In this document: positions 26,901 through 42,573 of the stretch, piece after piece
How positions within the stretch are numbered: the stretch's first letter is position 1
How the letters are laid out: each line of letters begins with the position of its first letter
Origin: Pseudomonadota bacterium
GTDB lineage: Bacteria; Pseudomonadota; Gammaproteobacteria; Burkholderiales; Rhodocyclaceae
Assembly (NCBI GenBank): GCA_018240785.1
Contig: JAFEFC010000011.1
Span: 125,435-189,434, forward strand
Length of the DNA: 64,000 nucleotides
Reading direction: 5' to 3'
Program-made: the position numbers and the translations under genes
Notes under the pieces: generated by a model
Told to the model about the DNA's origin: nothing
Database searches by the model: none
What the model saw: only the letters and a program-made list of their open reading frames with translations

Positions 26901-27949
26901 GCGCCGTCCCCCAATCCATGAGTGCCACGTCGCTCGACCGGCGCATCCAGATGCTGCGCACGGCGATGGGGCCGCTGATCGCCACCGCGCTCGAAGACCC
27001 GGACGTGGTGGAAATCATGCTCAACCCGGATCGCACCCTCTGGGTGGATCGCCTGTCCTCGGGTCGCGCGCCGATGGGCGTCGAGATGCCCGAGGCCGAT
27101 GGCGAGCGAATCATCCGCCTGGTCGCCGCCCACGTCGGCGCGGAAGTGCATCGCGGCCAGCCCCTGCTGTCCGCCGAGCTGCCCGAAACCGGCGAACGCT
27201 TCGAGGGCATCCTGCCTCCGGCCGCACCGGGGCCGGCCTTTGCGCTGCGCAAGCGCGCCATCGGCGTGATTCCGCTGGAGCGGTACGTCGTGGAGGGAAT
27301 GATGACCGCCGCCCAGGCCGGCTTTCTGGTGCGGGCCGTGCGCGAGCGCCAGAACGTCCTGATCGCAGGCGCCACCAGCAGCGGCAAAACCACGCTCGCC
27401 AATGCCTTGCTCGCCGAAATCGCCGCCACGGGCGACCGCGTGCTGGTGCTCGAAGACACGGTGGAACTGCAATGCGCGGCCCGCGACCACGTTCCGCTGC
27501 GCACGCGCGCTGGCGTGGTGTCCATGACCGAGCTGGTGCGCTCGTCCATGCGCTTGCGTCCTGATCGCGTGGTCGTCGGCGAGGTGCGCGGCGCCGAGGC
27601 GCTGGATCTCATCAAGGTCTGGGGCACCGGCCACCCCGGCGGCATCGCCACGATCCACGCCGGCTCCGCGCTCGGCGCACTGCTGCGCCTGGAGCAACTG
27701 ATTCTCGAAGTGGCGGTGAATCCGCCGCGTGCGCTGATCGCCGAGGCGGTCAACGTGGTGATGCACATCGCCGGACGCGGACGCAAGCGCCGCATCGAGA
27801 GCATCGCCCGCGTCGTTGGCTTCGATGGCGTGGGCTACCAACTGGCGGACGCGCTGGAGACGCCGTTTCCCGAGCTGCCGCCAGTTCCCGAGGCCGCACC
27901 CGCTGCGGCGACTTCCCCGTCCCCTGACCACCTTGGAGAACTGCCATGA
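26897..27949 (+). CDS. trbB: TrbB, VirB11-type secretion ATPase
   Basis: 350 residues; ATG at 26897 overlapping the previous stop. Walker A GATSSGKTTLANALL is at about 157-171. The Asp box VLVLEDTVELQ follows, then MTELVRSSMRLRPDRVVVGEVRGAEALDLI (Walker B region), and the His box GHPGGIATIHAGSA in order. It is a hexameric cytoplasmic ATPase energising pilus assembly and DNA transfer. The C-terminal 30 residues are Pro/Ala-rich. It overlaps trbC by ATGA. Confidence 0.96.
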   Translation: MSAVPQSMSATSLDRRIQMLRTAMGPLIATALEDPDVVEIMLNPDRTLWVDRLSSGRAPMGVEMPEADGERIIRLVAAHVGAEVHRGQPLLSAELPETGERFEGILPPAAPGPAFALRKRAIGVIPLERYVVEGMMTAAQAGFLVRAVRERQNVLIAGATSSGKTTLANALLAEIAATGDRVLVLEDTVELQCAARDHVPLRTRAGVVSMTELVRSSMRLRPDRVVVGEVRGAEALDLIKVWGTGHPGGIATIHAGSALGALLRLEQLILEVAVNPPRALIAEAVNVVMHIAGRGRKRRIESIARVVGFDGVGYQLADALETPFPELPPVPEAAPAAATSPSPDHLGELP

Positions 27950-28338
27950 CGCAGATGATCGTTCCTGCTTTCCGTTTTTCTGCAAATCCGGCTTTGCGCC
28001 TGCCCACGCTGTCGCGGCTGCACCGCCTGGCCGGTCCTGCGGCGCAAGGGCTGCTGCTGTCCGCGCTGCTGCTGTTCCTGGCCGGAACCGCGCAGGCCGC
28101 TGGTTCTTCGATGCCGTGGGAAGGCCCGTTGCAATCCATCCTCGAATCCATCCAGGGGCCGGTGGCGCGCATCGTGGCCGTCATCATCATCATCGCCACG
28201 GGCCTGGCGCTGGCCTTCGGCGACACGTCGGGCGGGTTCCGCAAGCTGATCCAGATCGTGTTCGGCTTGAGCATCGCTTTCGCCGCGTCCTCGTTCTTCC
28301 TGTCGTTCTTTTCGTTCTCGGGCGGGGCAGTCGTATGA
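27946..28338 (+). CDS. trbC: TrbC, conjugative pilin precursor (VirB2-like)
   Basis: 130 residues. A long N-terminal signal region (about 1-48, hydrophobic near 32-47) precedes the mature part, starting near AAGSSMPWEGPLQSILESIQGPVARIV. Two transmembrane helices follow (IVAVIIIIATGLALAFG and IQIVFGLSIAFAASSFFLSFF), the pattern of TrbC/VirB2 pilins. The TraF peptidase encoded at 8516 is the expected maturation enzyme. It overlaps trbD by ATGA. Confidence 0.92.
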   Translation: MTQMIVPAFRFSANPALRLPTLSRLHRLAGPAAQGLLLSALLLFLAGTAQAAGSSMPWEGPLQSILESIQGPVARIVAVIIIIATGLALAFGDTSGGFRKLIQIVFGLSIAFAASSFFLSFFSFSGGAVV

Positions 28339-28607
28339 GCGGCCCGGACAGCTTCGCGGCCGGGTTCGAGGTGCCGCTGCATCGTTCGCTCACCGAGCCG
28401 ATCTTGCTGGGCGGCGCACCGCGCACCGTGGCGATTGCCAACGGCACGCTGGCCGCCGCCGTCGGGCTGGGCCTGCAACTGTGGATTCCTGGCGTCGTGC
28501 TCTGGATCGTCGGCCATTCGCTGGCGGTTTGGGGTGCGCGCGTCGATCCGCAGTTCATGGCCGTGTTCGCCCGGCACATCAAGCACCGCCCGCTGCTGGA
28601 CGTGTAG
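28335..28607 (+). CDS. trbD: TrbD, VirB3-like inner-membrane protein
   Basis: 90 residues; ATG at 28335. The VirB3-type opening FEVPLHRSLTEPILLGGAPR is followed by a hydrophobic pair of segments (about 32-62) and a basic tail. It is an inner-membrane component that partners TrbE in pilus assembly. The gap to trbE is 12 bp. Confidence 0.93.
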   Translation: MSGPDSFAAGFEVPLHRSLTEPILLGGAPRTVAIANGTLAAAVGLGLQLWIPGVVLWIVGHSLAVWGARVDPQFMAVFARHIKHRPLLDV

Positions 28608-28619
28608 GGGGATGCCGAA

Positions 28620-31073
28620 ATGCTGAACCTTGCCGAATACCGTCAGCGCCCGGCCTTGCTCGCCGACTGGCTACCTTGGGCCGGACTGGTCGCACCAGGT
28701 GTCGTCTTGAACAAGGACGGCAGTTTCCAGCGCACGGCCCGGTTTCGCGGGCCTGACCTCGACAGCGCCACGCAAGGCGAATTGATCGCCACGTCAGCGC
28801 GCTTGAACAACGCGCTGCGCCGGCTGGGTTCGGGCTGGGCGCTGTTCGTGGAGGCCGAGCGCCGCGCCGCCGCCGACTACCCGCACTCCGACTTTCCCGA
28901 GCCGCTGTCGTGGCTGGTGGACGAGGAACGCCGCGCTGCCTTCGAGGACTCGGGCAACCACTTCGAGAGTGGCTATCACCTGACTCTGGTGTACCTGCCG
29001 CCCGAGGAATCGCGAGCCCGAGCCGCCAAGATGCTCTACGAGAACACGCCGACGAATGGCGTGGACTGGCGCGAGCGGCTGCAAGCCTTCGTCGCGGAAA
29101 CGGATCGGGTATTTGACCTGCTCGATGGCGTCATGCCGGAAATCGCTTGGCTCGATGACGCGCAAACCCTGACCTACCTGCACGCGACCATTTCGACGCG
29201 GCGCTATCGCGTGGGCGTGCCCGAAGTGCCATTCCACATCGACGCACTGCTGACCGACTCGCCGCTGGTCGGCGGCCTCGCGCCCATGCTGGGGGACCGG
29301 CACCTGCGCGTGGTGTCGGTGCGCGGATTCCCGACCTCGACCTGGCCGGGGATTCTGGACGACCTCAACCGCCTGGGATTTGGGTATCGCTGGAGTACGC
29401 GGTTTCTGTGCCTCGACAAATCCGAGGCGGAACGGGAGTTGGGGCGCTTGCGCCGCCAGTGGTTCGCCAAGCGCAAGAACGTCATCGCGCTGCTGCGCGA
29501 AACCATCTTCCAGCAGGAAAGCCCGCTGGTCGATACCGACGCCAACAACAAGGCCGCTGATGCCGATGCCGCCTTGCAGGAGCTGGGCAGCGATCAAGTC
29601 GCCTTCGGCTACCTGACGGCGACCGTCACCGTCATGGACGAAGACGCCGCGGTGGCCGACGAGAAGCTGCGCATGGTGGAGCGCGTCATCCAGGGGCGCG
29701 GGTTCGTGACCATCCCCGAAACGCTCAACGCCGTGGATGCGTGGCTGTCCTCGCTCCCCGGCAACGCCTACGCCAACGTGCGCCAGCCCATCGTCTCAAC
29801 GCTGAACCTGGCGCACATGATGCCGGTGTCAGCGGTATGGGCCGGGCCGGAGAAGAACGACCACTTGGGCGGCCCGCCGCTGATCGTCACCCGCACCGAT
29901 GGCGCGACGCCGTTCCGGCTGGTGACGCACATCGGCGACGTCGGCCACACGCTGGTGGCCGGCCCGACCGGCATGGGCAAGTCGGTGCTGCTCGCTACGC
30001 TGGCGATGCAGTTCCGCCGCTACCCTGGTTCGCGCATCTTCGCGTTCGACATGGGGCGCTCGATGCGCGCCACCATCCTCGGGCTGGGCGGCGAGCACTA
30101 CGACCTGGGCACGGACGGCGAGATCGCCTTCCAGCCGCTCGCCCGCATTGACCGCGAAGGCTATCGCACCTGGGCCGCCGAATGGATCGAAGGCCGCTTG
30201 TTGCACGAGGGCGTGGCGGTCGGCCCGGACGAGAAGGCGGCCATCTGGTCGGCACTCGGCAGCTTGGCCGGTGCGCCGGTGGAACAGCGCACCATGACCG
30301 GCCTGTCGGTGCTGCTGCAATCGAACGCGCTGCGCCAGGCGCTCGCGCCCTATGTGCTAGGCGGTGCGCACGGCAAGCTGCTGGACGCCGACCACGACCG
30401 GCTCGGCATGGCCGACGTGCAGTGCTTCGAGATGGAGGAGCTGATGCACAGCAAGGCCGCCGTCATGGCCGTGCTGCATTACCTCTTTGCGCGTTTCGAT
30501 GAACGCTTTGACGGTGCGCCCACGCTGCTGATCCTCGATGAAGCATGGCTGTTCTTGGATGACCCGGTGTTTGCGGCGCGCATCCGCCAGTGGCTCAAGA
30601 CGCTGCGCAAGAAAAACGTATCGGTGATCTTCGCCACGCAGAGCCTTGCCGACATCAAGGATTCCAGCATCGCGCCCGCGATCATCGAAAGCTGCGCAAG
30701 CCGCATCTTTCTGCCGAACCCGCAGGCGACCGAGCCGCAGATTCGCACGATCTACGAGGGTTTCGGCCTGAACTCGCGGCAGATCGAAATCGTCGCCACG
30801 GCCGTTCCGAAGCGCGACTACTACTACCAATCCCGCCTCGGCAACCGCCTGTTCGACCTCGACTTGGGGCCGGCCGCGCTCGCCTTCGCGGGCGCTTCCA
30901 CGCCGCAAGACCAGCGCGACATAGACCGCGTCCTGCTGGACGCCGGCACGCCTGGCTTCGCGGGCGCCTGGCTGCGCCATCGCGGCCTCGATTGGGCGGC
31001 TGACCTGCTGCCTTCGTTCCCCGGCCTCGCGCCGGCTTCCCCCGCTGACCACCCACAGGAGATCCTGCCATGA
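28620..31073 (+). CDS. trbE: TrbE, VirB4-type ATPase
   Basis: 817 residues; ATG at 28620. The N-terminal CagE/VirB4 domain (about 1-400) is followed by Walker A AGPTGMGKSVLLATLA (about 446-461), Walker B TLLILDEAWLFLDD (about 634-647) and VIFATQSLADI, all in the expected order for VirB4. It is the largest assembly ATPase and associates with the inner membrane. The length is typical, and it overlaps trbJ by ATGA. Confidence 0.96.
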   Translation: MLNLAEYRQRPALLADWLPWAGLVAPGVVLNKDGSFQRTARFRGPDLDSATQGELIATSARLNNALRRLGSGWALFVEAERRAAADYPHSDFPEPLSWLVDEERRAAFEDSGNHFESGYHLTLVYLPPEESRARAAKMLYENTPTNGVDWRERLQAFVAETDRVFDLLDGVMPEIAWLDDAQTLTYLHATISTRRYRVGVPEVPFHIDALLTDSPLVGGLAPMLGDRHLRVVSVRGFPTSTWPGILDDLNRLGFGYRWSTRFLCLDKSEAERELGRLRRQWFAKRKNVIALLRETIFQQESPLVDTDANNKAADADAALQELGSDQVAFGYLTATVTVMDEDAAVADEKLRMVERVIQGRGFVTIPETLNAVDAWLSSLPGNAYANVRQPIVSTLNLAHMMPVSAVWAGPEKNDHLGGPPLIVTRTDGATPFRLVTHIGDVGHTLVAGPTGMGKSVLLATLAMQFRRYPGSRIFAFDMGRSMRATILGLGGEHYDLGTDGEIAFQPLARIDREGYRTWAAEWIEGRLLHEGVAVGPDEKAAIWSALGSLAGAPVEQRTMTGLSVLLQSNALRQALAPYVLGGAHGKLLDADHDRLGMADVQCFEMEELMHSKAAVMAVLHYLFARFDERFDGAPTLLILDEAWLFLDDPVFAARIRQWLKTLRKKNVSVIFATQSLADIKDSSIAPAIIESCASRIFLPNPQATEPQIRTIYEGFGLNSRQIEIVATAVPKRDYYYQSRLGNRLFDLDLGPAALAFAGASTPQDQRDIDRVLLDAGTPGFAGAWLRHRGLDWAADLLPSFPGLAPASPADHPQEILP

Positions 31074-31795
31074 AGAAGCGCCTTGTCGCCGCTGCCATCG
31101 CGGCCATGCTTTGCACCGCCACCGCCCATGCGCAATGGGTCGTGATCGACCCCACCAACCTCGTGCAGAACACGCTGACCGCGATCCGCACGCTGGAGCA
31201 GATCAACAACCAGGTCCAGCAGCTTCAGAACGAAGCGCGGATGCTGATGAATCAGGCGCGCAACCTCGCCAGCCTGCCGTCTAGCGTGGTCGGCCAGTTG
31301 CGCGCCAATCTGGCGACGACCGAGCGGCTGATCGCCCAGGCGCGTGGCCTGGCCTACGACGTGACGAATCTGGATCGGGAGTTTGCGCGCCTGTACCCGG
31401 AGCAGTACGCCGCCACGGTGAGCGGCGACCAGATGTACCGCGACGCCCAGGAGCGGTGGAAGAACACGCTGGGCGGCTTGCAGACCACCATGCAGATGCA
31501 GGCGCAGGCATCGCAGAACCTCCATGACGATGAGGGTGTTCTGGCCGATCTGGTCAGCAAGAGCCAGTCTGCCGTCGGTGCGCTGCAAGCCATGCAGGCC
31601 ACGAATCAGCTTCTGGCCTTGCAGACCAAGCAGTCGATCCAGACACAGCGGCTCCAGATCACGCAGGACCGGGCCGCTTCGCTGGAACTGGCGCGGCAGG
31701 CGGCGGCCACGGAGCGCGCCCGCGAGGTGCGGCGGCGTTTCCTGGGCGACGGCACGCCGTACACGCCGCAGTCCGTGAACTTCTACGGCAACTGA
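31070..31795 (+). CDS. trbJ: TrbJ, VirB5-like periplasmic/pilus protein
   Basis: 241 residues. The signal peptide MKKRLVAAAIAAMLCTATAHA precedes a mature protein starting QWVVIDPTNLVQNTLTAIR, the TrbJ/VirB5 pattern, with long coiled-coil helices (about 35-100 and 130-225). It probably caps or lines the pilus base. The C-terminus RRRFLGDGTPYTPQS is nearly the same as the tail of the EexN-like lipoprotein at 23927. The gap to the second EexN-like gene is 12 bp. Confidence 0.92.
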   Translation: MKKRLVAAAIAAMLCTATAHAQWVVIDPTNLVQNTLTAIRTLEQINNQVQQLQNEARMLMNQARNLASLPSSVVGQLRANLATTERLIAQARGLAYDVTNLDREFARLYPEQYAATVSGDQMYRDAQERWKNTLGGLQTTMQMQAQASQNLHDDEGVLADLVSKSQSAVGALQAMQATNQLLALQTKQSIQTQRLQITQDRAASLELARQAAATERAREVRRRFLGDGTPYTPQSVNFYGN

Positions 31796-31807
31796 CAGGA
31801 GGCCGCC

Positions 31808-32137
31808 ATGCGATGCGTCCTCGCCCTGTCTGTTCCGGTGCTGGTGCTGCTGGCCGCCTGCGGTGAGCAGCCGGCAGACAACCTCGCTGATGCCCTGGCC
31901 GCCGATCCCGTGCGGCTCAAGGCGTTGCGCGCGCAATGCGCGGCCGACCGGGAGGCCACGGGCGAGGACGCTTGCCGCGCCGCCGCCGAAGCCTTCCGGC
32001 GGCGCTTCTTTTCCGGCGAGGCCGGGCCGGATGAATACCGGACGCTGGCCGACCTGCCGACGATTCCGCCCAGCTTCGAGGAGCCAGCCGATGGCACCGC
32101 ACCGGCCTTGCCCGCCGCCTCGGAGGACACGCCATGA
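31808..32137 (+). CDS. EexN/TrbK-like lipoprotein (copy 2)
   Basis: 109 residues; ATG at 31808 (AGGAGG upstream). The lipobox LLAAC gives Cys about 18. The helix ALAADPVRLKALRAQC...DACRAAAEAFRRRFF aligns with the first copy at 23927, including the cysteines and the RRF ending, but the tail beyond is different (Pro/Glu-rich). Its place between trbJ and trbL is that of trbK, the entry-exclusion gene of IncP plasmids. The first copy may be the recently acquired or diverged one. It overlaps trbL by ATGA. Confidence 0.82.
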   Translation: MRCVLALSVPVLVLLAACGEQPADNLADALAADPVRLKALRAQCAADREATGEDACRAAAEAFRRRFFSGEAGPDEYRTLADLPTIPPSFEEPADGTAPALPAASEDTP

Positions 32138-33504
32138 ATGACGTGACCATCATCGACCAGTTCCTCAACACCTTCGCCACCTACATCGACTCGGGGTTCG
32201 GGCTGCTGCGCGGCGAGGTGGCGTTCCTCACGGCCACGTTGATCGTCATCGACATGACGATCGCCGGGCTGTATTGGGCCATGAGCCACGCCACCGGTCA
32301 GGGCGAGGACGTGATCGCCAAGCTGCTGCGCAAGGTGCTCTACGTCGGTGCCTTCGCCTACATCCTCAACAACTTCAACTGGCTGGCCAGCATCGTGTTC
32401 CGCTCGTTCGCCGGGCTGGGCATCACCGCCACCGGCTCGGCCATCACGATGGAGAACTTCTTGCAGCCGGGCCGGCTCGCCAAGACCGGCATCGACGCCG
32501 GGGCGCCGATTCTGGAGCAGATCGGCGAGATGGCCGGTTTCCCCGAGGTGTTCGCCAATCTCGATCCCATCGTGGTGATGTTCCTTGCATGGCTGGTCGT
32601 GGTGCTGTGCTTCTTCGTGCTGGCGATCCAGCTTTTCATCACGCTGATCGAGTTCAAGCTGACCACGCTCGCCGGGTTCGTGCTGGTGCCGTTCGCGCTG
32701 TGGAACAAGACCAGCTTTCTCGCCGAGAAAGTGCTGGGCAATGTCGTGGCCGCCGGCATCAAGGTACTGGTGCTGGCCGTGATCGTCGGCATCGGCTCGG
32801 GCCTGTTCTCGCAGTTTCAAGTCCATCCCGCCGAACCGAACATCGACCACGCGCTGGTCATCATGCTGGCCTCGCTCACCTTGCTGGCGCTGGGGATCTT
32901 CGGCCCTGGCATCGCCACGGGCCTCGTGTCCGGTGCGCCCCAGCTCGGCGCGGGCGCGATGGCCGGTGCCGCTGTCGGCGCAGCCGGAACGGCAGTGGCT
33001 GTCGGTGCTGCCGCGACGGGCGTGGGCGGTGCGGTGGCCGCTGGTGCCCGCATGGCCCCGGCTGCCGCCAAGCTGGCCGGCAGTGGCGCGCGTGCCGCCT
33101 CATCGGCGGCTGGCAGCGCGAAGTCGGCGTTCCAGACGGGTTCCGCCGCAGCAGGCGGCGGCGCGAAAGGCGCGATGGCGGGCCTGGGCAACGTCGCCAA
33201 GACCGGCGCGCAGTCCGCCGGGCGCGCTGCCGCATCCCGTGCTTCCGCTGCCGGGCAGCGCATGGCCGCACCGTTCCGCGCTGGCTGGAACGGCGACGCT
33301 GGCGCGTCAGTCGGCCAGGCCGCCACCAGCGAAGCGCCGGCAGGCGCTGCCGCTGCACAGGCGCCCGAGCAGCCAGCCTGGGCCAAGCGGCTGCATCGCC
33401 GCCAACAACTTACCCATGCCGCGACCACCGCCGCCCACACGCTGCGCGGTGGCGATGGCGGCGGCTCAGGGCAAGGCCCGAGCCTGCGCGATTCCGACTC
33501 ATAA
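32134..33504 (+). CDS. trbL: TrbL, VirB6-like polytopic membrane protein
   Basis: 456 residues; ATG at 32134. The N-terminal ~270 residues have about six to eight membrane segments (for example LTATLIVIDMTIAGLYWAM, VVMFLAWLVVVLCFFVLAIQ, VLVLAVIVGIGSGLF in order). The C-terminal ~180 residues are a low-complexity Ala/Gly-rich cytoplasmic tail, as usual in TrbL. It forms the inner-membrane passage. The low complexity explains the long spurious frames on the other strand here. Confidence 0.94.
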   Translation: MNDVTIIDQFLNTFATYIDSGFGLLRGEVAFLTATLIVIDMTIAGLYWAMSHATGQGEDVIAKLLRKVLYVGAFAYILNNFNWLASIVFRSFAGLGITATGSAITMENFLQPGRLAKTGIDAGAPILEQIGEMAGFPEVFANLDPIVVMFLAWLVVVLCFFVLAIQLFITLIEFKLTTLAGFVLVPFALWNKTSFLAEKVLGNVVAAGIKVLVLAVIVGIGSGLFSQFQVHPAEPNIDHALVIMLASLTLLALGIFGPGIATGLVSGAPQLGAGAMAGAAVGAAGTAVAVGAAATGVGGAVAAGARMAPAAAKLAGSGARAASSAAGSAKSAFQTGSAAAGGGAKGAMAGLGNVAKTGAQSAGRAAASRASAAGQRMAAPFRAGWNGDAGASVGQAATSEAPAGAAAAQAPEQPAWAKRLHRRQQLTHAATTAAHTLRGGDGGGSGQGPSLRDSDS

Positions 33505-33516
33505 GGAGAACTGACC

Positions 33517-34221
33517 ATGCGATTCAAGAAACCGCAGGTGCGCTACGCCGACACGCCGCAGCCTGCCACGCCGTACCAAGCTGCCGGCCAGGTGTGGGAC
33601 GACCGTATCGGCTCGCCGCGCGTGCAGGCGAAGAACTGGCGCTTGATGGCGTTCGGGTGCCTGACGCTCGCGCTGCTGATGGCCGGCGGCCTGGTGTGGC
33701 GCTCGGCGCAGTCCATCGTCACGCCCTATGTGGTGGAGGTGGACAACGCGGGCCAGGTGCGCGCCGTGGGCGAAGCCGCCACGCCGTACCGGCCCAACGA
33801 TGCGCAGACGGCGCACCACATCGCGCGCTTCGTGACGCTGGTGCGCTCGCTGTCCATCGACCCCATCGTCGTCCGCCAAAACTGGCTGGACGCCTACGAC
33901 TACACGACCGACAAAGGCGCAGCCGTGCTCAACGATTACGCGCGGGTCAACGACCCGTTCGCGCGCATCGGCAAGGAGTCGGTGACGGTGCAGATCACCA
34001 GCGTCGTGCGCGCCAGCGAAACGTCTTTCAACGTGCGCTGGACGGAACGCCGCTACGTCAACGGCGCCGCGGCGGGCCTGGAGCGGTGGACGGCGGTGGT
34101 GTCCATCGTGCTCCAGCCGCCGCGCACCGAAGAACGCCTGCGCAAGAACCCGCTGGGCATCTACGTCAACGGCCTGTCGTGGAGCCGCGAACTGGATTCT
34201 TCCGAAGGAGCAAAACCATGA
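33517..34221 (+). CDS. trbF: TrbF, VirB8-like assembly protein
   Basis: 234 residues; ATG at 33517 (AAGGAG upstream). The N-terminal cytoplasmic TPYQAAGQVWDDRIGS motif, the single membrane helix LMAFGCLTLALLMAGGLVW (about 44-62) and the periplasmic NTF2-like VirB8 fold (about 70-220, with VQITSVVRASETSFNVRWTE) are in order. It nucleates the channel at the inner membrane. It overlaps trbG by ATGA. Confidence 0.95.
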   Translation: MRFKKPQVRYADTPQPATPYQAAGQVWDDRIGSPRVQAKNWRLMAFGCLTLALLMAGGLVWRSAQSIVTPYVVEVDNAGQVRAVGEAATPYRPNDAQTAHHIARFVTLVRSLSIDPIVVRQNWLDAYDYTTDKGAAVLNDYARVNDPFARIGKESVTVQITSVVRASETSFNVRWTERRYVNGAAAGLERWTAVVSIVLQPPRTEERLRKNPLGIYVNGLSWSRELDSSEGAKP

Positions 34222-35219
34222 ACCTGTCTTTCCGCTTTTACGCTTTGCCGTTGATGCTTGTTGCCCTGGCGGGCTGCGCCACGCAGGGCAAGCCGCCGCC
34301 GACCATCTCGCTCGATGAGCCGGTGCAGGCCCAGGCGCTGCCGGAGCCGCCCGCGCCGGTGGAAGTCGTGGCCGTTCCCGAAGTGCTGCCGATGCCAGCG
34401 CAGTTGATGCCGGTTCCCGAGGCCGAGGGTACCAAGCCCACGCCCGAGCCGGCCGACGAGAAGGTGCGCGTTTCACGCGCCAATGCCGAGGCGCGTGTCG
34501 CGCCCACGCGCGAGGGCTACGTCAACGCGATTCAAGTGTGGCCCTTCACCGATGGCGCTCTCTATCAGGTCTATGCGGCCGTGGGCCGCGTGACCGTGGT
34601 GTCGCTCCAGCCTGGCGAGGAACTGGTGACGGTGGCCGCCGGGGATACCGTGCGCTGGATCGTGGGCGACACGTCCAGCGGCAGCGGTGCCGACCTGCGC
34701 GTCAACGTGCTGGTGAAGCCCATCCGCTCGGGCCTGAAAACCAATCTGGTCATCACCACCAGCCGCAGGACGTACCTGCTGGAGCTGACTTCCACGGACA
34801 AGACGTGGATGGCATCGGTGTCCTGGGAGTACCCGCGCGACCGGATGCTGGCCTTGCAGCGCCAGGCGCAGGCGGCCAGCGCCGCCGCGCCGGTCGATAG
34901 CGGCCTGTCGCTGGAGAACCTGCGTTTCCGCTACGCGATCAGCGGCAGCAATCCGCCGTGGAAGCCGCTGCGCGCCTTCGACGACGGGCAGAAGGTCTAT
35001 CTCCAGTTTCCCGCCGGCATCGCGCAGGGCGATCTTCCGCCGCTGTTCGTGATCGGGGCCGAAGGTGACGGGCAACTGGTGAACTACCGCTTCCGCTCGC
35101 CGTACTACATCGTGGATCGACTCTTTGGCGCGGCAGAGCTGCGCCTGGGCGGTGACAAAGGCGACGTGGTGCGGATCGAGCGCACAGATGGCGTCGTCAG
35201 CAGGGCCGGGAGGAACTGA
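34218..35219 (+). CDS. trbG: TrbG, VirB9-like outer-membrane complex protein
   Basis: 333 residues; ATG at 34218. The lipoprotein-like signal ends LVALAGC (Cys about 19). A Pro/Glu-rich linker (about 25-80) leads to the VirB9 N-domain (NAIQVWPFTDGALYQVYAA... LQPGEELVTVAAGDTVRW) and the C-terminal beta domain ending YIVDRLFGAAELRLG. It forms the outer-membrane ring with TrbI. The stop is 2 bp before trbI. Confidence 0.95.
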   Translation: MNLSFRFYALPLMLVALAGCATQGKPPPTISLDEPVQAQALPEPPAPVEVVAVPEVLPMPAQLMPVPEAEGTKPTPEPADEKVRVSRANAEARVAPTREGYVNAIQVWPFTDGALYQVYAAVGRVTVVSLQPGEELVTVAAGDTVRWIVGDTSSGSGADLRVNVLVKPIRSGLKTNLVITTSRRTYLLELTSTDKTWMASVSWEYPRDRMLALQRQAQAASAAAPVDSGLSLENLRFRYAISGSNPPWKPLRAFDDGQKVYLQFPAGIAQGDLPPLFVIGAEGDGQLVNYRFRSPYYIVDRLFGAAELRLGGDKGDVVRIERTDGVVSRAGRN

Positions 35220-35221
35220 CC

Positions 35222-36496
35222 ATGAGCCAGGACGACACTCCCGACCTCGCCACGCCGCAGGCGGGCAAGGTCGCGCCCGAGGCGGTGGCGCTTCGCTCCC
35301 AGCCGCGTGCTGTGACCCGGTTGAACCGGCGCACGCTGGCCGTTCTCGTCGGCGGCCTGTCGGTCGCCGTGCTCGGGGCCACGATCTGGTCGCTGCAACC
35401 GCAGCGGCGTGGTGCGGGCGAGCAGACCGAGCTTTACAACGTCGATCGCGTCTCGAAATCCGAAGGGCTGGACGGCCTGCCGGCCGACTACTCGAAGCTG
35501 CCGCCAAAGGTGCCCGAGCTGGGGCCGCCGCTGCCGGGCGATCTTGGCCCGGCCATCGTGAACTCGCAGCAGCCAGCCGTGGCCGCTTACGCGGCCCCCG
35601 GCCACGATCCCAACGACGCCTTGCGCAAGGAGGCGGAAGCCGCAGCGGCTTCGTCGGTGTTCTTCCGCTCGGGCGGCCAGGGGCAAGCTGCCGCCACGGT
35701 GGCGCAGGCGGCACCGGGGGCACCTGGCGCTGCCAGCACGCTCGCGGCCTTCGACCCGCTCGCCGCCGGGCCGGCCTCGGTGGCGGCCCAGCTTGCCGCC
35801 CCAGCCGCTGCACAGAGCCGGCAAGACCAGAACGAGGCGTTCCTGCAAAGCGGTTCTAAGGAAACCCGCAATTCCGGCCATCTGGCGCCGCCGGCGTCGC
35901 CGTATCAGGTCATGGCCGGAACGGTGATCGCGGGCGCGCTGGTGACGGGCATCAAGTCCGACCTGCCGGGCGACGTGATCGCCACGGTGACGGAGCCGGT
36001 CTATGACTCGGCCACGGGCAAGTTCCTGCTGATTCCGCAGGGATCGCGCATCCTCGGGCGCTACAACAGCCGGGTCAGCCACGGGCAGAGCCGGGTGCAG
36101 GTGGTGTGGAATCGGGTCATCCTGCCCGATACGTCCTCGCTGACGCTCGACAACCTCATCGGCACCGACCCGGCCGGTTACTCCGGCCTGGAGGATGACG
36201 TGGACTGGCACTGGGATCGCATCGTCGCGGGCGCGGTGCTGATGACGCTGCTGGGTGTCGGTGCCGAGCTGGCCGCACCGGAGAACCGCCAGGACGGCAA
36301 CCGCATTGTCATCGCGGGGCGCGACAGCGCCCAGGACAGCACCAATCAGGTCGGCCAGGAGATTACCCGGCGCAACATGGACATCCAGCCGACGCTGACC
36401 ATCAGGCCGGGTCTGCCGGTTCGCGTCATCGTGAACCAGGATCTGGTGCTGCGGCCGTACCAGCCGCTGTTCTTCAACCGGGGGGCTTCCCAATGA
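35222..36496 (+). CDS. trbI: TrbI, VirB10-like channel protein
   Basis: 424 residues; ATG at 35222. A short cytoplasmic start, one membrane helix (LAVLVGGLSVAVLGATIW, about 38-55), a Pro/Ala-rich periplasmic linker to ~230, and the conserved VirB10 C-terminal barrel (YQVMAGTVIAGALVTGIKSDLPGDVIATVTEPVYDSATG and LLIPQGSRILGRYN in order) are visible. It spans both membranes and transmits the energy signal. Its last ~45 residues are mirrored in the decayed copy at ~42010. It overlaps the DUF2274 gene by ATGA. Confidence 0.95.
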   Translation: MSQDDTPDLATPQAGKVAPEAVALRSQPRAVTRLNRRTLAVLVGGLSVAVLGATIWSLQPQRRGAGEQTELYNVDRVSKSEGLDGLPADYSKLPPKVPELGPPLPGDLGPAIVNSQQPAVAAYAAPGHDPNDALRKEAEAAAASSVFFRSGGQGQAAATVAQAAPGAPGAASTLAAFDPLAAGPASVAAQLAAPAAAQSRQDQNEAFLQSGSKETRNSGHLAPPASPYQVMAGTVIAGALVTGIKSDLPGDVIATVTEPVYDSATGKFLLIPQGSRILGRYNSRVSHGQSRVQVVWNRVILPDTSSLTLDNLIGTDPAGYSGLEDDVDWHWDRIVAGAVLMTLLGVGAELAAPENRQDGNRIVIAGRDSAQDSTNQVGQEITRRNMDIQPTLTIRPGLPVRVIVNQDLVLRPYQPLFFNRGASQ

Positions 36497-36708
36497 GCAC
36501 GAAGAAACTGCGGCTCGGGCCGCTGCCCAAGACCGAGAACGTCAAGCTGACCTTTGCCTGTCCGGCCAGCCTGAAAGCCGACCTCGACCGCTACGCTGCG
36601 CTGCACGCACAGGCGTATGGCGAGGCGGTCGATGTGGCAACGCTGATCCCGCACATGCTGGAGGCGTTCATGGCGGGGGATCGGGGATTTAGACGCCACG
36701 CAAGGTAG
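36493..36708 (+). CDS. DUF2274 family protein
   Basis: 71 residues; the ATG at 36493 overlaps the trbI stop. The opening KKLRLGPLPKTENVKLTFACPASLKADLDRYAALHAQAYGEAVD in order and the ending MLEAFMAGDRGFRR match DUF2274, the small gene that closes the trb operon in Tn4371-like ICEs. The LKADLDRYAALHAQ helix and LIPHMLEAF suggest an RHH-like fold, so it may be a regulator. It is the last backbone gene before the defence pocket. Confidence 0.88.
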   Translation: MSTKKLRLGPLPKTENVKLTFACPASLKADLDRYAALHAQAYGEAVDVATLIPHMLEAFMAGDRGFRRHAR

Positions 36709-36716
36709 ACGCCCAT

Positions 36717-37454
36717 TCAGCGGTCGGGATCGTTTCGGCCGTTTCTGAGAATCTCCAACGCTGCCTGTAGGTGTCGTTCTTCTGGCCCCAGGGCGGAAAG
36801 GGACGAGAACACCGCTGCTGTTTGGTGCCAATAGATGGCGTGACTAATGGCGGGGCGCAGCGCGTCGAGTTCTTCGCTCGTCAGGGACGCCGCAAACGCA
36901 CGTAGCCGGATCTCTGATCTCTCGCGCCGGATGTGGCACTCACGACACAAAGCACGCAGGGCACTGAGTGGGTATTCCCAAGGCTCGAAGCCTTCTCGCA
37001 TATTTGCGTAGTAGCAATGGTGGGCATCCAAAGGCTTCGTGGCTCCGCAGTCCTGACATTGATGTCCTGCCCGCTTCTTCACGGTGGCGGCCTTCTTGCG
37101 CCACCTTTCATCTTGGAGCTTGGATGCATAGGTACCTGAAAGCCGTGAGTAGTCATACCCCTTAATAGGGTAGAAGCCCATGTTCCAAGAGTGACCAAGC
37201 TCGTACCAGAATCCGAACGACTCAACCAGATCGTCAAACTCCATCGTGTCGCCACCGTAGTTCAACATGGTATGAAGCGTACTGCTGTCGAACACTAGGA
37301 CTAAGAGCGAGTCGTTCCCATAGGGCTCGTTTCGAGCTCTCCAAGCCTCGATATCGACGAAGAACGCATCCCCTAGGATTTCCTCTTTAATCATCCATTC
37401 GGTAAGAGCGACACGCATGCGCTCCAAGTTTCTACTCATTGCAGTGAAATGCAT
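36717..37454 (-). CDS. HNH-type zinc-binding nuclease domain protein
   Basis: 245 residues; the ATG at 37454 has GGAGGAGAAG directly upstream, whereas the longer TTG-started frame would include it. The N-terminal ~150 residues match nothing I recognise, though they are rich in aromatic residues. A C-terminal HNH/zinc motif follows: CQDCGATKPLDAHHCYY near 137-151, then CRECHIRRE near 176, a CxxC-HH-CxxC arrangement as in HNH endonucleases. It ends 8 bp from the DUF2274 stop and is transcribed toward it. Its lower GC content sets it apart from the backbone. A defence-island role is inferred from its neighbour. Confidence 0.72.
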   Translation of the reverse strand: MHFTAMSRNLERMRVALTEWMIKEEILGDAFFVDIEAWRARNEPYGNDSLLVLVFDSSTLHTMLNYGGDTMEFDDLVESFGFWYELGHSWNMGFYPIKGYDYSRLSGTYASKLQDERWRKKAATVKKRAGHQCQDCGATKPLDAHHCYYANMREGFEPWEYPLSALRALCRECHIRRERSEIRLRAFAASLTSEELDALRPAISHAIYWHQTAAVFSSLSALGPEERHLQAALEILRNGRNDPDR

Positions 37455-37692
37455 CTTCTCCTCCAAAGGGCAAGGGGATCGCGGAGCTTACGAATCAGGG
37501 TGGCTAACGCTGTGGCGCGTTCGATAGGCCGTTCCGCCGATGTAGCACCAGTCGAAAGTGTCCTTGTGGGTCGGCAGCAACCGGTGGCTGCCGAGTTCGT
37601 CGCCCCAAGTGAAACGCTATAGTTATAGTAATCTGCATAAAAATGCTGGCCTTTTGACCAGCCAGATGGTCCGATAACCGAGGGAGGTTGGG

Positions 37693-40011
37693 ATGCATTT
37701 GAAGAAGTTGGCCGTCCGGAATTTCAGGCGGCTGCGAAACGTTGTAATTGATCTTGCTTCCGACATCTCTATTTTTGTCGGTGCGAACAACAGCGGCAAG
37801 ACATCAGTCGGGCACGCACTCCAGTTATTCACTGGCAGTGGCCGCTTCAACATTCACGACTTTAGTGCCGAACTTTGGGCCGACATCGTTGCGTTTGGTG
37901 AGGGCGATGGCGAGGCGAGTCTTCCCACGATGGAAATCGACGTTTGGTTCGAAATCGGTCCGGACGATGTTCACCGCGTCATCGATCTTCTTCCGAGCCT
38001 TGCTTGGGAAGGCAAGCTGGTGGGCATGCGCGTTGCCTACGCGCCCACCAATCCTGCGGCGACGAATGCACGATATGTCGAAGTGCGCCAGCGCGTGCTC
38101 GATGTGGTCACTAAGGGTGAAGACGGAGCGCCCGCCTTCGATCCCTCGCCACGCAACCTGCGGGAGTTCCTTCGCGAAAGGCTAAATGACGAATATGAGC
38201 TGCGCTATTTCGTACTCGATCCCGCGCGGTTCGATGCGAAGATGGTCGCAGAGGCTGGCTATGACCCAGCCACTCTCACCGGACGCGACCGGAGCGGCCG
38301 TGAGATCTTGAACGGCCTTCTACACATTGACTTCTTGAACGCACAGCGCCATCTCTCGGACGGCCCAGGTGGCTCTCGCGCCGAGGATCTTTCCCGTGTA
38401 CTCAGTCGCTTCTACGGGCGCAACCTCGAACAGAAAGGCGAAGATATCGAAGCGTTGCGCGCCCTTGCAGCATCCGAAGTCTCGCTTAATGAGCATCTCG
38501 AACGAGTGTTCGAACCGACGCTCAAGAGCTTGTCGAAGCTCGGCTATCCGGGCCTCTCAAACCCGCGCATGATGATCCGCTCGGCCCTCGACCCTGCCCA
38601 GATCATGAGCGGTCGAGATGGCGCAATCGTTCACTATGCGTTGGGAGCCGATGACGGGAAGCCCGACCCGCCTACCTTGCCCGATCGGTATAACGGTCTT
38701 GGCTTTAAAAACCTCATCTTCATGGTCGTCGAGCTGCTCGATCTCCACGCTCAATGGTTGGCGATCGAGGAAAACCGTCCGCCGGTCCACCTGATCTTCA
38801 TCGAGGAGCCCGAAGCGCACCTCCATGCCCAGCTTCAACAGGCCTTCATCCGCAAGGTGATGGACATCCTAGCGCTCAAGGGCGAGGACCGCACGCACTA
38901 TACGAGCCAGGTCGTCGTCACGACCCATTCGACTCATATCCTTTACGAACGAGGCTTCCGGCCGATCCGCTATTTTCGCCGAAGCCGTGCACAGAATGTG
39001 TCGACCTCTGATGTACTCAACCTCTCGGTTTTCTACGACAGCACCGATCCGGACATCCGAAGCTTCCTCGAGCGCTACTTGAAACTCGCGCACTGTGATC
39101 TGTTCTTCGCCGATGGCACCGTGTTGGTCGAAGGCAATGTCGAACGGCTGCTATTGCCGCAGATGATCGCCAATGCCGCGCCGCGGCTGCAATCGACCTA
39201 TCTCACCGTCCTAGAGATCGGCGGAGCGTTCGGCTACCGATTCAAAACGCTGATCGAATTTCTCGGACTGACAACGCTCATCATCACCGATCTCGACAGC
39301 GTGTTCGGTCCACTGGAGCAGGATGGCGCGGGTGCGGCACCAGCTGGTCAACCGGAGGCCGTGGAACCAGCCGCCGATGACGCGCAGGCTGCTGGCGCTG
39401 ACGCTGAGGACATTGACGATGACGAGGAGGATGTGCCTGTGGCCGCGGAGAAGCCTGGGAAGGCGTGCATAGCCGGTCATCCGGGCGCGGCGACGTCCAA
39501 TCAGACTTTGCTCCAATGGCTACCGAAATGCGACACGGTCGCCGCCCTGTGGGAGGCGACGGCAGAGCAGAAGATCCAGGCGAGGACGGACGACAATGAC
39601 GCTTTGGTACGCGTTGCCTATCAGTGCCGGATCGATGTCACTTGGGGCGAAGAAACCCTGGCGCTAGCCGGGCGCACGCTGGAAGAAGCATTTGCACTCG
39701 AAAATCTTAAATGGTGCCAGGACAAGAACCGTAAGCCGCTTCAACTCCGCATCGCCAAGGCCGACGAGAAGAACCTGACCACGCTTGCGGAACGCATCCA
39801 CAAGCGCGTGCAGGCTAAGAGCTTCAGCAAGACGGACTTCGCGCTTGCCTTGTTAGCCGAAGATCCGAGCAGTTGGTCGGTCCCAACCTATATCGCCGAG
39901 GGCCTGAGCTGGCTTGAGACCGAGATTGCGCCGCCGGAACCGGACGAGGACTTGCCGCATGAGGACGCGCCCCAGGGGGCGCCAGCCGCCGCCGCCGAGG
40001 TAGCAGCATGA
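37693..40011 (+). CDS. OLD-family ATP-dependent nuclease, GajA-like
   Basis: 772 residues; ATG at 37693 (GGGAGG upstream). The ABC-type ATPase half shows FVGANNSGKTSVG (Walker A, about 28-40), LIFIEEPEAHLHAQLQQAF (Walker B, about 365-383) and VVTTHSTHIL (about 410). The C-terminal Toprim nuclease shows LFFADGTVLVEGNVERLLLP (catalytic Glu about 478) and LIITDLDSVFG (about 529-539). An acidic insert of about 40 residues follows the DLD motif. Together with the coupled UvrD-like gene this is the Gabija arrangement, an anti-phage defence system. It is longer than the ~580-residue reference GajA. GC is lower than in the ICE backbone. Confidence 0.85.
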   Translation: MHLKKLAVRNFRRLRNVVIDLASDISIFVGANNSGKTSVGHALQLFTGSGRFNIHDFSAELWADIVAFGEGDGEASLPTMEIDVWFEIGPDDVHRVIDLLPSLAWEGKLVGMRVAYAPTNPAATNARYVEVRQRVLDVVTKGEDGAPAFDPSPRNLREFLRERLNDEYELRYFVLDPARFDAKMVAEAGYDPATLTGRDRSGREILNGLLHIDFLNAQRHLSDGPGGSRAEDLSRVLSRFYGRNLEQKGEDIEALRALAASEVSLNEHLERVFEPTLKSLSKLGYPGLSNPRMMIRSALDPAQIMSGRDGAIVHYALGADDGKPDPPTLPDRYNGLGFKNLIFMVVELLDLHAQWLAIEENRPPVHLIFIEEPEAHLHAQLQQAFIRKVMDILALKGEDRTHYTSQVVVTTHSTHILYERGFRPIRYFRRSRAQNVSTSDVLNLSVFYDSTDPDIRSFLERYLKLAHCDLFFADGTVLVEGNVERLLLPQMIANAAPRLQSTYLTVLEIGGAFGYRFKTLIEFLGLTTLIITDLDSVFGPLEQDGAGAAPAGQPEAVEPAADDAQAAGADAEDIDDDEEDVPVAAEKPGKACIAGHPGAATSNQTLLQWLPKCDTVAALWEATAEQKIQARTDDNDALVRVAYQCRIDVTWGEETLALAGRTLEEAFALENLKWCQDKNRKPLQLRIAKADEKNLTTLAERIHKRVQAKSFSKTDFALALLAEDPSSWSVPTYIAEGLSWLETEIAPPEPDEDLPHEDAPQGAPAAAAEVAA

Positions 40012-41885
40012 CAAGCCGGATCGGCAGTCCTGACACACAAGCCGATCTAGATGTTCGAGCGTGTCTCGATCGGACGCCGCCACGCTCGTTTGTCATGGTC
40101 GCCGGTGCGGGGTCGGGGAAAACGACCTCGCTGATCAAGGCTATCGCGCACCTAGCCGAGACGCGCGGTCCTGCCCTGCGCCGAGCCGGGCAACAAATCG
40201 CCTGCATCACATATACCGAAGTCGCAGTCGGTGAGATTTCGGCCGATGTCGGGGCCTCGCCGCTATTCCACATCTCGACCATCCACAGTTTTCTGTGGTC
40301 AGTCATCCGGCCGTTCCATTCGGATATCGCGGTTTGGGTAGCCACCCGCATCGACGAGAAGATCGCGGAGCGACGTGCACACTACGACAAGCCTCGGACT
40401 CAGGCGAAAACGAAGGCCCGCCTCGAACAGGAGATTGCCGATCTCGAAGCCGATCTGGCTGCGATCAGTGAAGTAGAGAAGTTCGTTTACGGCACCGGCA
40501 GCAGCTACGCTGAAGGCATCCTTGGCCATGACGATATCCTCAAGCTCACCCCAGCCTGCGTCGCAACGCATCCGCTGCTGAGGCAACTCGTCGCCAAGCG
40601 CTTTCCCTACATCTTCGTCGATGAGAGCCAAGATACCAATCCGGAGGTCGTCGAGGCGTTGCGGCACATTGCGGGCGAACATCCCGGCCTGTGTGTCGGG
40701 TTCTTCGGAGACCCGATGCAAAAGATCTATATGAGCGGAGCAGGCACTGTCCCGCTGAACGACGGCTGGGCGGAGATCACAAAGTCCGAGAACTTCCGGT
40801 GCCCGACATCGGTGCTTGGGGTCATCAATGCAGTCCGCGCCCCTGGCGACGATCTTGAGCAGGTGCGTGGTCGGACGATAACCGTTGATGGCATCGAGCA
40901 GCCGGTTGCCGGTACATCCAATCTGTTCATCCTGCCGGCGGACGCGGAGCGGAGTGCGCGCCTCACAGCCATTAGGCAGTGGCTGGCCGCCGAAACCGGC
41001 GACGACCTGTGGTTAAGTGACGTGCGGGAAGGCGATGTCCGCCTGCTTGTACTGGTGCACCGCATGGCGGCCAACCGGCTCGGGTTCCCTAATCTGTATG
41101 CTGCGCTCAATGACCGAGCCCCCATGAGTCTGAGTGAGGGGCTGAGCGATGGCACAGCCTGGCCGCTCCGTCCACTTGTCCAGCACATACTTCCGCTCGT
41201 TGTCGCGGCGCAAGCGGGTGATCGGTTCACAGTGATATCGACCTTGCGCAGCGAATGCCCGAGGCTTGAACCAGCGCGGCTTCGAGGGCAAGCGACGGCC
41301 CCCGTTCTTACGGCGCTACAGCAAGCGCTCGACGGGCTTGTCGGTCTGTTGGCAGCAGGATCGCAGGCGACTATCCGGGACGTCTTGACGCATGTGCGAG
41401 ATAACGAGTTGCTGCGCCTCGATGATCGCTTCGCCATGCATCTGGTTGCAGAGCCTGTGGATGACGGCAGCAGCGGCTTCGAGAACGTTCAAGCCTATCT
41501 GGCATGCGGTGTCGACGAACTCTGGGCCTACCGGCGCTACTTTACGGAGGAGTCACCGTTCGCGACGCATCATGGGGTGAAGGGTGCCCAATTTGAGCGC
41601 GTATTGGTCGTCATCGACGATGAGGAAGCGGGCTTCCGGCAGTATTCTTACGGGAAGTATCTCGGGTACGTCCCCCTCTCGGACAAGGACGAAGCCAACC
41701 TGGCGGCAGGTGAAGAGTCCGTACTCGATCGAACCCGCCGCCTCTTCTATGTGTGCTGCTCGCGTGCAACGAAGGACCTGGCCGTCGTGGCCTTTGTGCC
41801 CGATGTCGCAGCGGCCCGCACGGCGATCGTGGCGCAGAATCTATTTCCCGAGGCCGTAATCCGAGGTGCGGAGCATCTGGGCTGA
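40008..41885 (+). CDS. UvrD/PcrA-like helicase, GajB-like
   Basis: 625 residues; ATG at 40008 overlapping the nuclease stop by ATGA. Motif I is AGAGSGKTTSL (about 32-42), motif Ia ITYTEVAVGEI, motif II YIFVDESQDTNP (about 202-213), motif III-like GFFGDPMQKIY, motif IV region ENFRCP, motif V HHGVKGAQFERVLVV and motif VI LFYVCCSRATKDL, all in SF1A order. A coiled stretch (about 125-155) may form part of an accessory domain. In Gabija the helicase-like subunit senses DNA ends or nucleotide depletion and works with the nuclease. The pair ends 120 bp before the trbI remnant. Confidence 0.87.
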   Translation: MTSRIGSPDTQADLDVRACLDRTPPRSFVMVAGAGSGKTTSLIKAIAHLAETRGPALRRAGQQIACITYTEVAVGEISADVGASPLFHISTIHSFLWSVIRPFHSDIAVWVATRIDEKIAERRAHYDKPRTQAKTKARLEQEIADLEADLAAISEVEKFVYGTGSSYAEGILGHDDILKLTPACVATHPLLRQLVAKRFPYIFVDESQDTNPEVVEALRHIAGEHPGLCVGFFGDPMQKIYMSGAGTVPLNDGWAEITKSENFRCPTSVLGVINAVRAPGDDLEQVRGRTITVDGIEQPVAGTSNLFILPADAERSARLTAIRQWLAAETGDDLWLSDVREGDVRLLVLVHRMAANRLGFPNLYAALNDRAPMSLSEGLSDGTAWPLRPLVQHILPLVVAAQAGDRFTVISTLRSECPRLEPARLRGQATAPVLTALQQALDGLVGLLAAGSQATIRDVLTHVRDNELLRLDDRFAMHLVAEPVDDGSSGFENVQAYLACGVDELWAYRRYFTEESPFATHHGVKGAQFERVLVVIDDEEAGFRQYSYGKYLGYVPLSDKDEANLAAGEESVLDRTRRLFYVCCSRATKDLAVVAFVPDVAAARTAIVAQNLFPEAVIRGAEHLG

Positions 41886-42002
41886 GGTTTCAACACATCG
41901 GGCAGTCAATCGGCGGAGGCCGCTGGACCTTGCTCATGGGCTTGGTCGCGGTCTAGCGCAGCAGAGTTAACCTTGACTGAACGCGCTTGGATGAGCCGTG
42001 TC

Positions 42003-42230
42003 ATGGAACTCCCTTATGAAATGGCCCGGCGCAGCCTCAACATCCAGCCGACGCTGACCGAGCGACTGGGCCTGCCGGTACGCATCATCGTCACCACGAC
42101 TTGGTCCTGCGCCCCTATCAGCCGTTGTTCTTCAATCAGAGGCGATCTTAAGCACCACGCGCAGACATATGGCGAAGCAGTCGACGCCATAACGCTGATG
42201 GCGAGGGACCGGGGATTCAGGAAGGGCATG
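42003..42230 (+). pseudogene. Decayed trbI 3' end fused to a deleted DUF2274 gene
   Basis: The frame gives RRSLNIQPTLTERLGLPVRIIV, matching the end of the intact TrbI (RRNMDIQPTLTIRPGLPVRVIV at ~36370). A frameshift follows; the next frame restores DLVLRPYQPLFFNQR. After a deletion come AQTYGEAVDAITLMARDRGF, the end of DUF2274 lacking about ten residues. Differences from the local copy are too many for a recent duplication, so it derives from a related element. Confidence 0.8.
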
Positions 42231-42263
42231 GCGACACCGAGCGCACCATCGAAGCTGACATGA

Positions 42264-42573
42264 TGGTGCCGCATACTATCCAACGGCATCCATCGAACGC
42301 GCAGCCCAAGGCTGCGCGTTCTTCGTTCTAGATGCCGCCAAGAGCCGCCTGGGCTATGATGACAAAACAAGCCCGCCGTCCCTCGGCAATCCAGCACGGC
42401 ACAGTGCGATGTGGCTTTCTCTCCCAACGCTCCTATGTGGCTCCTAGCCCGCGAGGCCACACCTCGCCAAAGTGGCCGAGAAAAGAGCTAACCTACTGTC
42501 CCATATACGGTTTCAAGCCTTGCGTGATTGGCACGTAAGACTTGACACCGGCACTTTTTTGTGCTGCGCGGGC
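42264..42573. other. 310-bp gap: probable right boundary between ICE and chromosome
   Basis: No gene is seen. It contains the terminator at 42295 and then sequence of lower coding quality up to the 3' end of ppsA. A short GCAC-TTTTTT-GTGC element at ~42551-42564 could terminate ppsA. I could not identify an att core; the octamer TTTTTCAT known from Tn4371 attachment sites is not present here. The boundary is therefore placed by gene content only. Confidence 0.45.
42295..42326 (+). terminator. 12-bp hairpin with T-rich tail
   Basis: GAACGCGCAGCC (42295-42306) and GGCTGCGCGTTC (42310-42321) with a 3-nt CAA loop, followed by TTCGTTCT. It lies after the decayed trbI/DUF2274 copy and fits the terminator of the former trb operon. 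Confidence 0.7.

Follow-up and report, generated by a model that had tools for sequence, protein, structure and literature searches.

How does a phage-defence operon come to lie between two copies of the same end of a conjugation gene cluster, one working and the other dead? The question is raised by a stretch of 64,000 nucleotides from a Rhodocyclaceae genome of the Pseudomonadota (assembly GCA_018240785.1, contig JAFEFC010000011.1, positions 125,435 to 189,434), which we analysed as a whole and term the window; coordinates without a prefix are those of the window. It holds the larger part of a Tn4371-family integrative and conjugative element (ICE) of ~51.3 kb that is inserted between fumA and ppsA, two genes whose names were read from the sequence without a family search. 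At its right edge the ICE carries an HNH-nuclease-like gene and the Gabija genes gajA and gajB, together the cassette, followed by a decayed remnant of trbI and of the adjoining DUF2274 gene, here called the scar. The explanation that we favour, and consider fairly probable, is that a second ICE lineage acquired the Gabija cassette by homologous recombination at its trb/DUF2274 end on one side and by a short-homology join within the recipient's own trbI on the other. The scar thereby points to a trade in cargo among such elements through mutual recombination.

The dead copy of the trbI-DUF2274 end

A preliminary description of this DNA had placed the HNH gene and a two-gene nuclease/helicase operon between an intact trbI-DUF2274 end (to 36708) and a decayed copy of that end at ~42003-42230, and this arrangement is confirmed. 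In blastn comparisons the second copy matches the intact trbI 3' end far better than chance (79% over 112 bp, E = 3e-23), and two shorter collinear pieces fall within DUF2274 (E = 3e-5 and 0.004). The trbI 3' remnant (42018..42142, plus strand) is dead and frameshifted, and the DUF2274 remnant (42143..~42230, plus strand) has lost its start codon and carries an internal deletion; both were also aligned with the corresponding scar in a Burkholderiales metagenome-assembled genome (MAG; contig MKUP01000006). The frameshift and deletion described earlier therefore stand, and the start of the copy is rather at 42018, slightly inside the boundary first given. When 41890-42560 was used as a query against the whole assembly, the matches at E<=0.001 were the segment itself and the intact copy, and nothing else. 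The E-value, the ~20% divergence of one copy from the other and the MAG contig rule out a chance resemblance or an assembly artefact.

Differences between scar and intact copy concentrate at third codon positions, both in the MAG (39/98 third-position sites versus 24/188 other sites, Fisher p = 4e-7) and in the window (23/63 versus 22/123, p = 0.007); scar against scar, no clear third-position bias is seen (11/59 versus 12/117, p = 0.15). Because of this concentration the two copies are, as judged from their codon pattern, separate working alleles and not a fresh duplicate, with most of the difference predating gene death. The earlier view that the second copy derives from a related element instead of a recent duplication is thus borne out. 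The interval between the copies contains the HNH gene, gajA, gajB and a 132 bp tail, with no integrase. An att (attachment) site between DUF2274 and the HNH gene, which would speak against that view of the locus, is also lacking: none of the T-run cores of the family, nor GATTTTAAG, occurs at 36400-42554 on either strand.

The element and its termini

The scar is located inside the ICE, since the remnant runs straight into the true right terminus of the element and att sites bracket both. This terminus (42231..42562, plus strand) was recognized through matches of 42198-42562 to the right ends of other ICEs, namely those of G073 (87%), MKUP_C22 (85%), G022 (77%) and a plasmid-borne ICE of Citrobacter freundii SL151 (70%; NZ_CP017058). 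In G022, a genome of the same genus, an intact trbI-DUF2274 stands directly before the terminus that matches 42198-42561 at 77% (L016). The attR core TTTTTTGT lies at 42555-42562 and is the single occurrence of this 8-mer in the window, while attL is the same 8-mer in the upstream flank (L003:11305-11312), behind fumA and 51 kb upstream of attR. The SL151 ICE becomes 99.9% identical starting precisely at L003:11305; on the opposite side chromosomal identity is back from ~42565 (98% to G007, a same-genus genome), and ppsA starts at 42574 on the minus strand. The empty arrangement, with fumA adjoining ppsA within the fetched flank, was found in one of ten same-genus ppsA loci (L009).

Elements of the Tn4371 family have T-run direct repeats (TTTTTCAT, TTTTTTGT and similar), and TTTTTTGT is present at both ends here. 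A tyrosine integrase of the Tn4371-family type is encoded at one end (L003:11451-12695) and shows amino acid identities of 87% to that of G073, 83% to that of G022 and 65% to that of ICEbphKF708 of Cupriavidus basilensis KF708; the KF708 genome has a further integrase elsewhere (78%), and integrases 87% identical to that of the window are present on many plasmid records. The traG-trbBCDEJLFGI block (22989-36692) is collinear with the annotated block of NZ_CP017058 at 83% identity, versus 98-99.9% identity to the same plasmid ICE from attL to 11521, with one insertion in the latter. Because of this disparity the window ICE is, by sequence comparison, demonstrably recombinant; it underwent further recombination in its later history. 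The match of window 1-11521 and L003:11305-20000 to the ICE on the IncC plasmid of C. freundii SL151 also points to recent spread among distant hosts. The idea of another ICE lying left of the integrase was rejected: a blastn search with the window, run there without a protein search, found no trb-like DNA in the preceding 31 kb (L004, and L003 to 11304), and no trb gene was seen among the open reading frames of L003.

The cassette and its carriers

In the intact end, trbI (35222..36496, plus strand), the last mating-pair gene of the trb operon, is recognized by the Pfam TrbI model (E = 1.7e-61) and is collinear with the annotated trbI of SL151. The working DUF2274 gene (36493..36708, plus strand; Pfam DUF2274, E = 6.8e-26) takes its last codons from cargo-side sequence, which runs from 36693 on. 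The HNH-nuclease-like gene (36717..37466, minus strand) matches HNH endonuclease families of PHROG (best E = 1.3e-9) and no Pfam family at E<=0.001. It is followed by gajA (37693..40011, plus strand), encoding an OLD-type ATPase/TOPRIM nuclease (PADLOC GajA, E = 1e-256; OLD-like TOPRIM, E = 8.6e-15; GajA chains of the PDB, E = 3e-8), by gajB (40008..41885, plus strand), encoding a UvrD-like helicase (PADLOC GajB, E = 3.1e-233; UvrD-helicase, E = 2.2e-21), and by the non-coding tail (41886..42017), which is also found behind gajB in KF708 and in the MAG. With an ATPase and OLD-type TOPRIM domain in GajA, a UvrD-like helicase in GajB, and the two genes adjacent in an overlapping operon as in Gabija, the cassette is expected from its sequence to work as a Gabija system, GajA being presumably a nucleotide-sensing, DNA-nicking nuclease and GajB its helicase partner. 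The ratios of nonsynonymous to synonymous substitution (dN/dS) for the HNH gene, gajA and gajB are 0.06-0.15 (0.06-0.13 for the HNH gene by itself), which suggests that all three genes are kept for function.

A scan of genome contigs for GajB yielded 130 confirmed relatives, the best 80 of which were fetched. The HNH gene together with a close trbI-DUF2274 pair accompanies Gabija in two of these 80 loci, MKUP01000006 and KF708, and the HNH gene is for this reason unlikely to be a component of Gabija. Besides this adjoining gene, the locus departs from Gabija references in its long GajA, which has 772 residues as against 575-675 in the GajA chains of the PDB. A third Gabija locus (L097) also has a TrbI/DUF2274 neighbour, but the pair is distant (44 and 48% amino acid identity). 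Six other Gabija loci (L020-L025, including LB400) match from ~37.6 kb to at most 41813-41895. Gabija relatives covering ~70% of the query occur on three plasmids (H1-H3); in the plasmid and phage collections no record combined cassette and scar, no phage matched, and the tail had no plasmid match.

The two close relatives differ in what follows the cassette. In the MAG the gene order is that of the window, the scar is fuller yet also dead, and the chromosomal neighbour is a different one. DUF2274 start-codon loss is common to both scars and further deletions are private to each; because this loss and the cassette order are shared at another chromosomal neighbour, the two look like one inherited scar. 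In KF708 the cassette is ~97% identical to that of the window and lies between DUF2274 and the ICE's own, different right end, with no scar: most of the tail is followed by an insertion sequence within it, then by the final ~70 bp and by scar-free sequence. From the same four bases (42018-42021), where we place the short-homology join between the cassette tail and the second ICE's trbI, KF708 continues into a tRNA terminator, while the window and the MAG continue into trbI and then into right termini of a different attachment type. As KF708-type ICEs without cargo (G376C21 and G374C17) have the DUF2274 end abutting the same kind of tRNA terminator directly, the KF708 form is, on this alignment, a plain and clean insertion. 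The true ends of the KF708 ICE are GATTTTAAG, 61,793 bp apart, in agreement with PMC6563109; an initial assignment of the sequence after the tail as a Tn4371-type attR was dropped once they had been located.

The cassette has a history distinct from that of the genes beside it. In 500-bp bins, identity between window and KF708 is 93-99% at 37.0-41.9 kb and 81-92% at 35.0-36.9 kb, and between window and MAG 93-98% over the cassette and 88-94% over 35.0-36.9 kb. Synonymous divergence (dS) of the window from KF708 and from the MAG is 0.06-0.12 for the HNH gene, gajA and gajB, as opposed to 0.44 and 0.34, respectively, for trbI. Taking 36650 as a breakpoint, a position picked after inspecting the data, window and KF708 differ at 112/650 sites to the left and 17/550 to the right (p = 1.5e-16), and window and MAG at 74/650 and 24/550 (p = 7e-6). 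The left recombination breakpoint can be placed at 36650..36692, inside the 3' end of DUF2274, where identity to KF708 and the MAG steps up; the matches to four cargo-free ICEs (SL151, G073, MKUP_C22 and G022) all end at 36692, and the bases just past this position are common to the three cassette carriers. Further left, identity in the trb region (23.0-35 kb) is uneven, with bins of 71-95% to KF708 and 76-95% to G073, as expected for a much recombined backbone. By these alignments the cassette is shown to be present in at least three ICE backbones and to be nearly the same in them, while trbI differs far more.

Origin of the scar

We propose that the two ICE types would have met in one cell, where the cassette passed from a KF708-type end to an ICE belonging to the same type as that of the window. 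On the trb side the exchange would have been homologous; on the other side, where the right ends have no common sequence, the molecules would have been joined at about four shared bases, one-sided events of this sort being known as homology-facilitated illegitimate recombination. As the join would fall inside the recipient's trbI, the recipient would retain its own integrase and right end, acquire a new working trbI-DUF2274 along with the cassette, and keep its displaced 3' trbI-DUF2274 as a scar that has been decaying since. What argues for a recipient of the window's type is that in both scar carriers integrase and right end appear to have stayed matched. Two MAG integrases are of the window's type (90% on C18, 86% on C24) and none is at the 65% level; since C18 and C22 look contiguous, the integrase of the cassette-bearing ICE would by elimination be that of C24. 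At their right termini, window and MAG share just 79% identity, as against ~96% over their cassettes.

Several observations weigh against this proposal. The join comprises just about four shared bases, the known carriers of the cassette number only three, and the left end of the MAG ICE is on another contig, its integrase type having been assigned solely by elimination. Over the trbI 3' end and DUF2274, neither the window (84.1%) nor the MAG (87.4%) is notably close to KF708, so the donor's own trbI may since have been replaced, or the donor may have been another ICE. In a tree of 32 sequences, computed under a model set by hand without model selection, the scars join the intact copy of KF708 (ultrafast bootstrap support 87) and not their own intact neighbours, a grouping that is unexpected under a simple scheme of two lineages; under the approximately unbiased test, none of the four topologies compared can be rejected (p = 0.24-0.60).

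The preliminary description had instead derived the locus from two related ICEs in tandem, followed by collapse or cargo exchange. The joining of two ICE lineages and the exchange of cargo agree with our results, while a collapse at this site is not supported in the form proposed. Suppose that two related ICEs were arranged head to tail: a deletion that began beyond the first ICE's cassette and reached the trbI of its neighbour, thereby removing the right end of the one and most of the other, would yield the same local structure, with copies that are different alleles, and the four-base homology at the join suits a deletion. ICEs of this kind do reside together, as the MAG with at least three trbI loci illustrates, and the left half of the window ICE has been exchanged again, so that its original integrase is not certain. 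Such a collapse, however, predicts the integrase type of the first ICE at the left, and the window has the type matching its right end, as the MAG probably does too; it is disfavoured because fusing a left and a right ICE in this way needs a further swap to give that integrase. As reported above, neither an integrase nor a known att core separates the copies. We also searched 34 loci by tblastn (E<=0.01), comprising 32 fetched stretches plus L018 and L019, each of at most 20 kb and some ending at contig ends. No tandem was present, and two DUF2274 copies occurred in one of them (L019), which is the MAG with the same cargo, so that a scar in the same place with different cargo, as might have been anticipated from the preliminary description, was not encountered. 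A search of 399 genomes of the order gave 28 DUF2274 hits in 23 of them, and no contig had more than one, a weak negative as this search misses scars so decayed (the window's own genome gave one hit). We consider a tandem collapse unlikely, if still worth keeping in mind. The picture of the defence genes as an edge passenger left by a collapse at this site is likewise not sustained, the scar being apparently inherited and inside the att-bracketed element and the cassette occurring in at least three backbones. The structure needs no tandem array, although it is compatible with one.

Two other schemes dispense with a second lineage or reverse the order of events. The cassette could have inserted together with a duplication of ~330 bp of trbI-DUF2274, the left copy being selected and later overwritten by recombination and the right one decaying. 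The left copy ends at about codon 66 of DUF2274 and the right one starts in trbI, so that they overlap as direct repeats, and the scar is nearest to the intact copy of KF708, as noted for the tree. Yet KF708 has no scar, and the differences between the MAG scar and the KF708 intact copy are also biased to third positions (31/98 versus 23/188, p = 1e-4), which makes this scheme quite improbable. Alternatively, the form with a scar is ancestral, and KF708 lost it on exchanging its right end for one fitting tRNA-Leu. End swapping does occur, as the other integrase and right end of KF708 attest, but the swap would have to land on the border between cassette and scar, and, compared with cargo-free ICEs of its own type, KF708 shows what amounts to a plain insertion; we give this order of events slightly less credence still.

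Returning to cassette uptake by exchange and short-homology joining, this suggests a route by which a phage-defence system may pass between mobile elements with different integration sites, namely recombination in a shared conserved end, and a gene stub on the far side of the cargo would be a readable fingerprint for counting such exchanges. A broader generalization, which we put forward tentatively and regard as possible but doubtful, is that Tn4371-family ICEs have an exchange port at their trb-distal end. Two kinds of module would be recombined there: defence cargo, and right ends that differ in attachment type (T-run terminators, or the tRNA-Leu(UAA) anticodon loop with tRNA replacement). 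Homology would guide recombination on the trb side only, the opposite side being sealed by short-homology joins; cargo would thereby cross between ICEs of incompatible integration specificity, leaving trbI-DUF2274 stubs as fingerprints.

Relationship to known elements

In tandem arrays of SXT/R391 elements, recombination between co-resident ICEs gives hybrid mosaics; the case described here differs from these hybrids in that one join is non-homologous and leaves a gene fragment. The window ICE agrees with the published account of the Tn4371 family (PMC2789088) in the order of its backbone, with a tyrosine integrase at one end and the trb operon up to trbI at the other, and in the repeat TTTTTTGT, which is printed in Table 4 of that paper as the repeat of two Tn4371-like elements. 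It departs from the account in having a defence cassette and a dead trbI-DUF2274 beyond trbI, cargo that the accessible parts of that paper do not mention. ICEbphKF708 resembles the window ICE in its HNH-gajA-gajB cassette behind DUF2274 and differs in its integrase, in its att core GATTTTAAG, in the absence of a scar and in a right end with an intron-bearing tRNA-Leu gene. The Gabija genes are not named in the available text of PMC6563109 and PMC11448139. Because PMC6563109 reports ICEbphKF708 to be almost identical to ICEKKS102Tn4677, Gabija is probably also cargo of the latter, which according to PMC11448139 was the only Tn4371-family ICE with confirmed transfer. No paper treating both Gabija and Tn4371 was found in the open literature searched.

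Intron-bearing tRNA-Leu genes in KF708-type ICEs

The host tRNA-Leu(UAA) gene is split in its anticodon loop (core GATTTTAAG) by integrated ICEs of the ICEbphKF708/ICEKKS102Tn4677 type. At the right end these ICEs carry, next to DUF2274 (or, in KF708, next to the cassette), a complete tRNA-Leu(UAA) with an intron of 226-232 nucleotides that breaks the att core too. Such split and replacement genes are found in KF708 (L018:~13060-13590, NZ_BBQM01000030), G376:C21 (L148), G374:C17 (L149) and G217:C74 (L153); both ICE ends were checked in KF708 alone. There ARAGORN identified a tRNA-Leu(taa) in the joined flanks and no tRNA at either occupied end. It called the intron-bearing gene tRNA-Leu(taa) in KF708, G376C21 and G374C17, and tRNA-Phe in G217. 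In the four genomes the only exact hit to a pattern for the 5' half of tRNA-Leu(UAA), allowing two mismatches, was the split copy at the ICE end, a further hit in G376 being tRNA-Leu(caa). An intact tRNA-Leu(taa) is present in the window's genome, which lacks an ICE of this kind at that site. The replacement tRNA would compensate the host for its split gene and resist the integrase. No group I intron was detected at the Rfam gathering score in five loci, the intron scoring 32.1 bits (E = 3e-6) under a gathering score of 50.

The ICEs probably captured the intron-bearing tRNA-Leu, because 17 of 20 further loci have such a tRNA without an ICE end of this kind within the fetched flank. ICEKKS102Tn4677 has been placed upstream of a Gly-tRNA (PMC11448139), and in G374C17 tRNA-Cys and tRNA-Gly genes lie behind the split gene. 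Our literature search, as far as the accessible texts extend, found no paper on ICE-borne replacement by an intron-bearing tRNA-Leu(UAA). A further right end is found at G374:C1 (L159), where DUF2274 is followed by an intron-bearing tRNA-Leu that ARAGORN calls (caa), with the GATTTTAAG core absent within 900 bp.

Other cargo and solitary ends

The window ICE also carries RND efflux genes (15774-~21560, with the adaptor subunit recognized); the SL151 ICE has an RND operon as well, two aligned pieces of which are merely ~67% identical to that of the window. Genes of other defence types adjoin DUF2274 elsewhere: an AbiEii toxin-type gene lies downstream of an intact DUF2274 in G347 (L147:3545-6275), AbiEii and a DUF6088 gene stand beside a DUF2274 stub in G152 (L145:12873-14886), and a TIR-domain gene is next to DUF2274 in G424 (L172). 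These neighbours suggest a cargo site, and do not prove that the same mechanism operates. Among the 34 loci, neither DUF2274 nor trbI was detected in L162, L169 and L175, and DUF2274 or part of it occurs without trbI in three others (L144-L146). One of these, near a guaB-like gene (as read from the sequence) in G401 (L144:10175-10366), is a solitary remnant of an ICE end.

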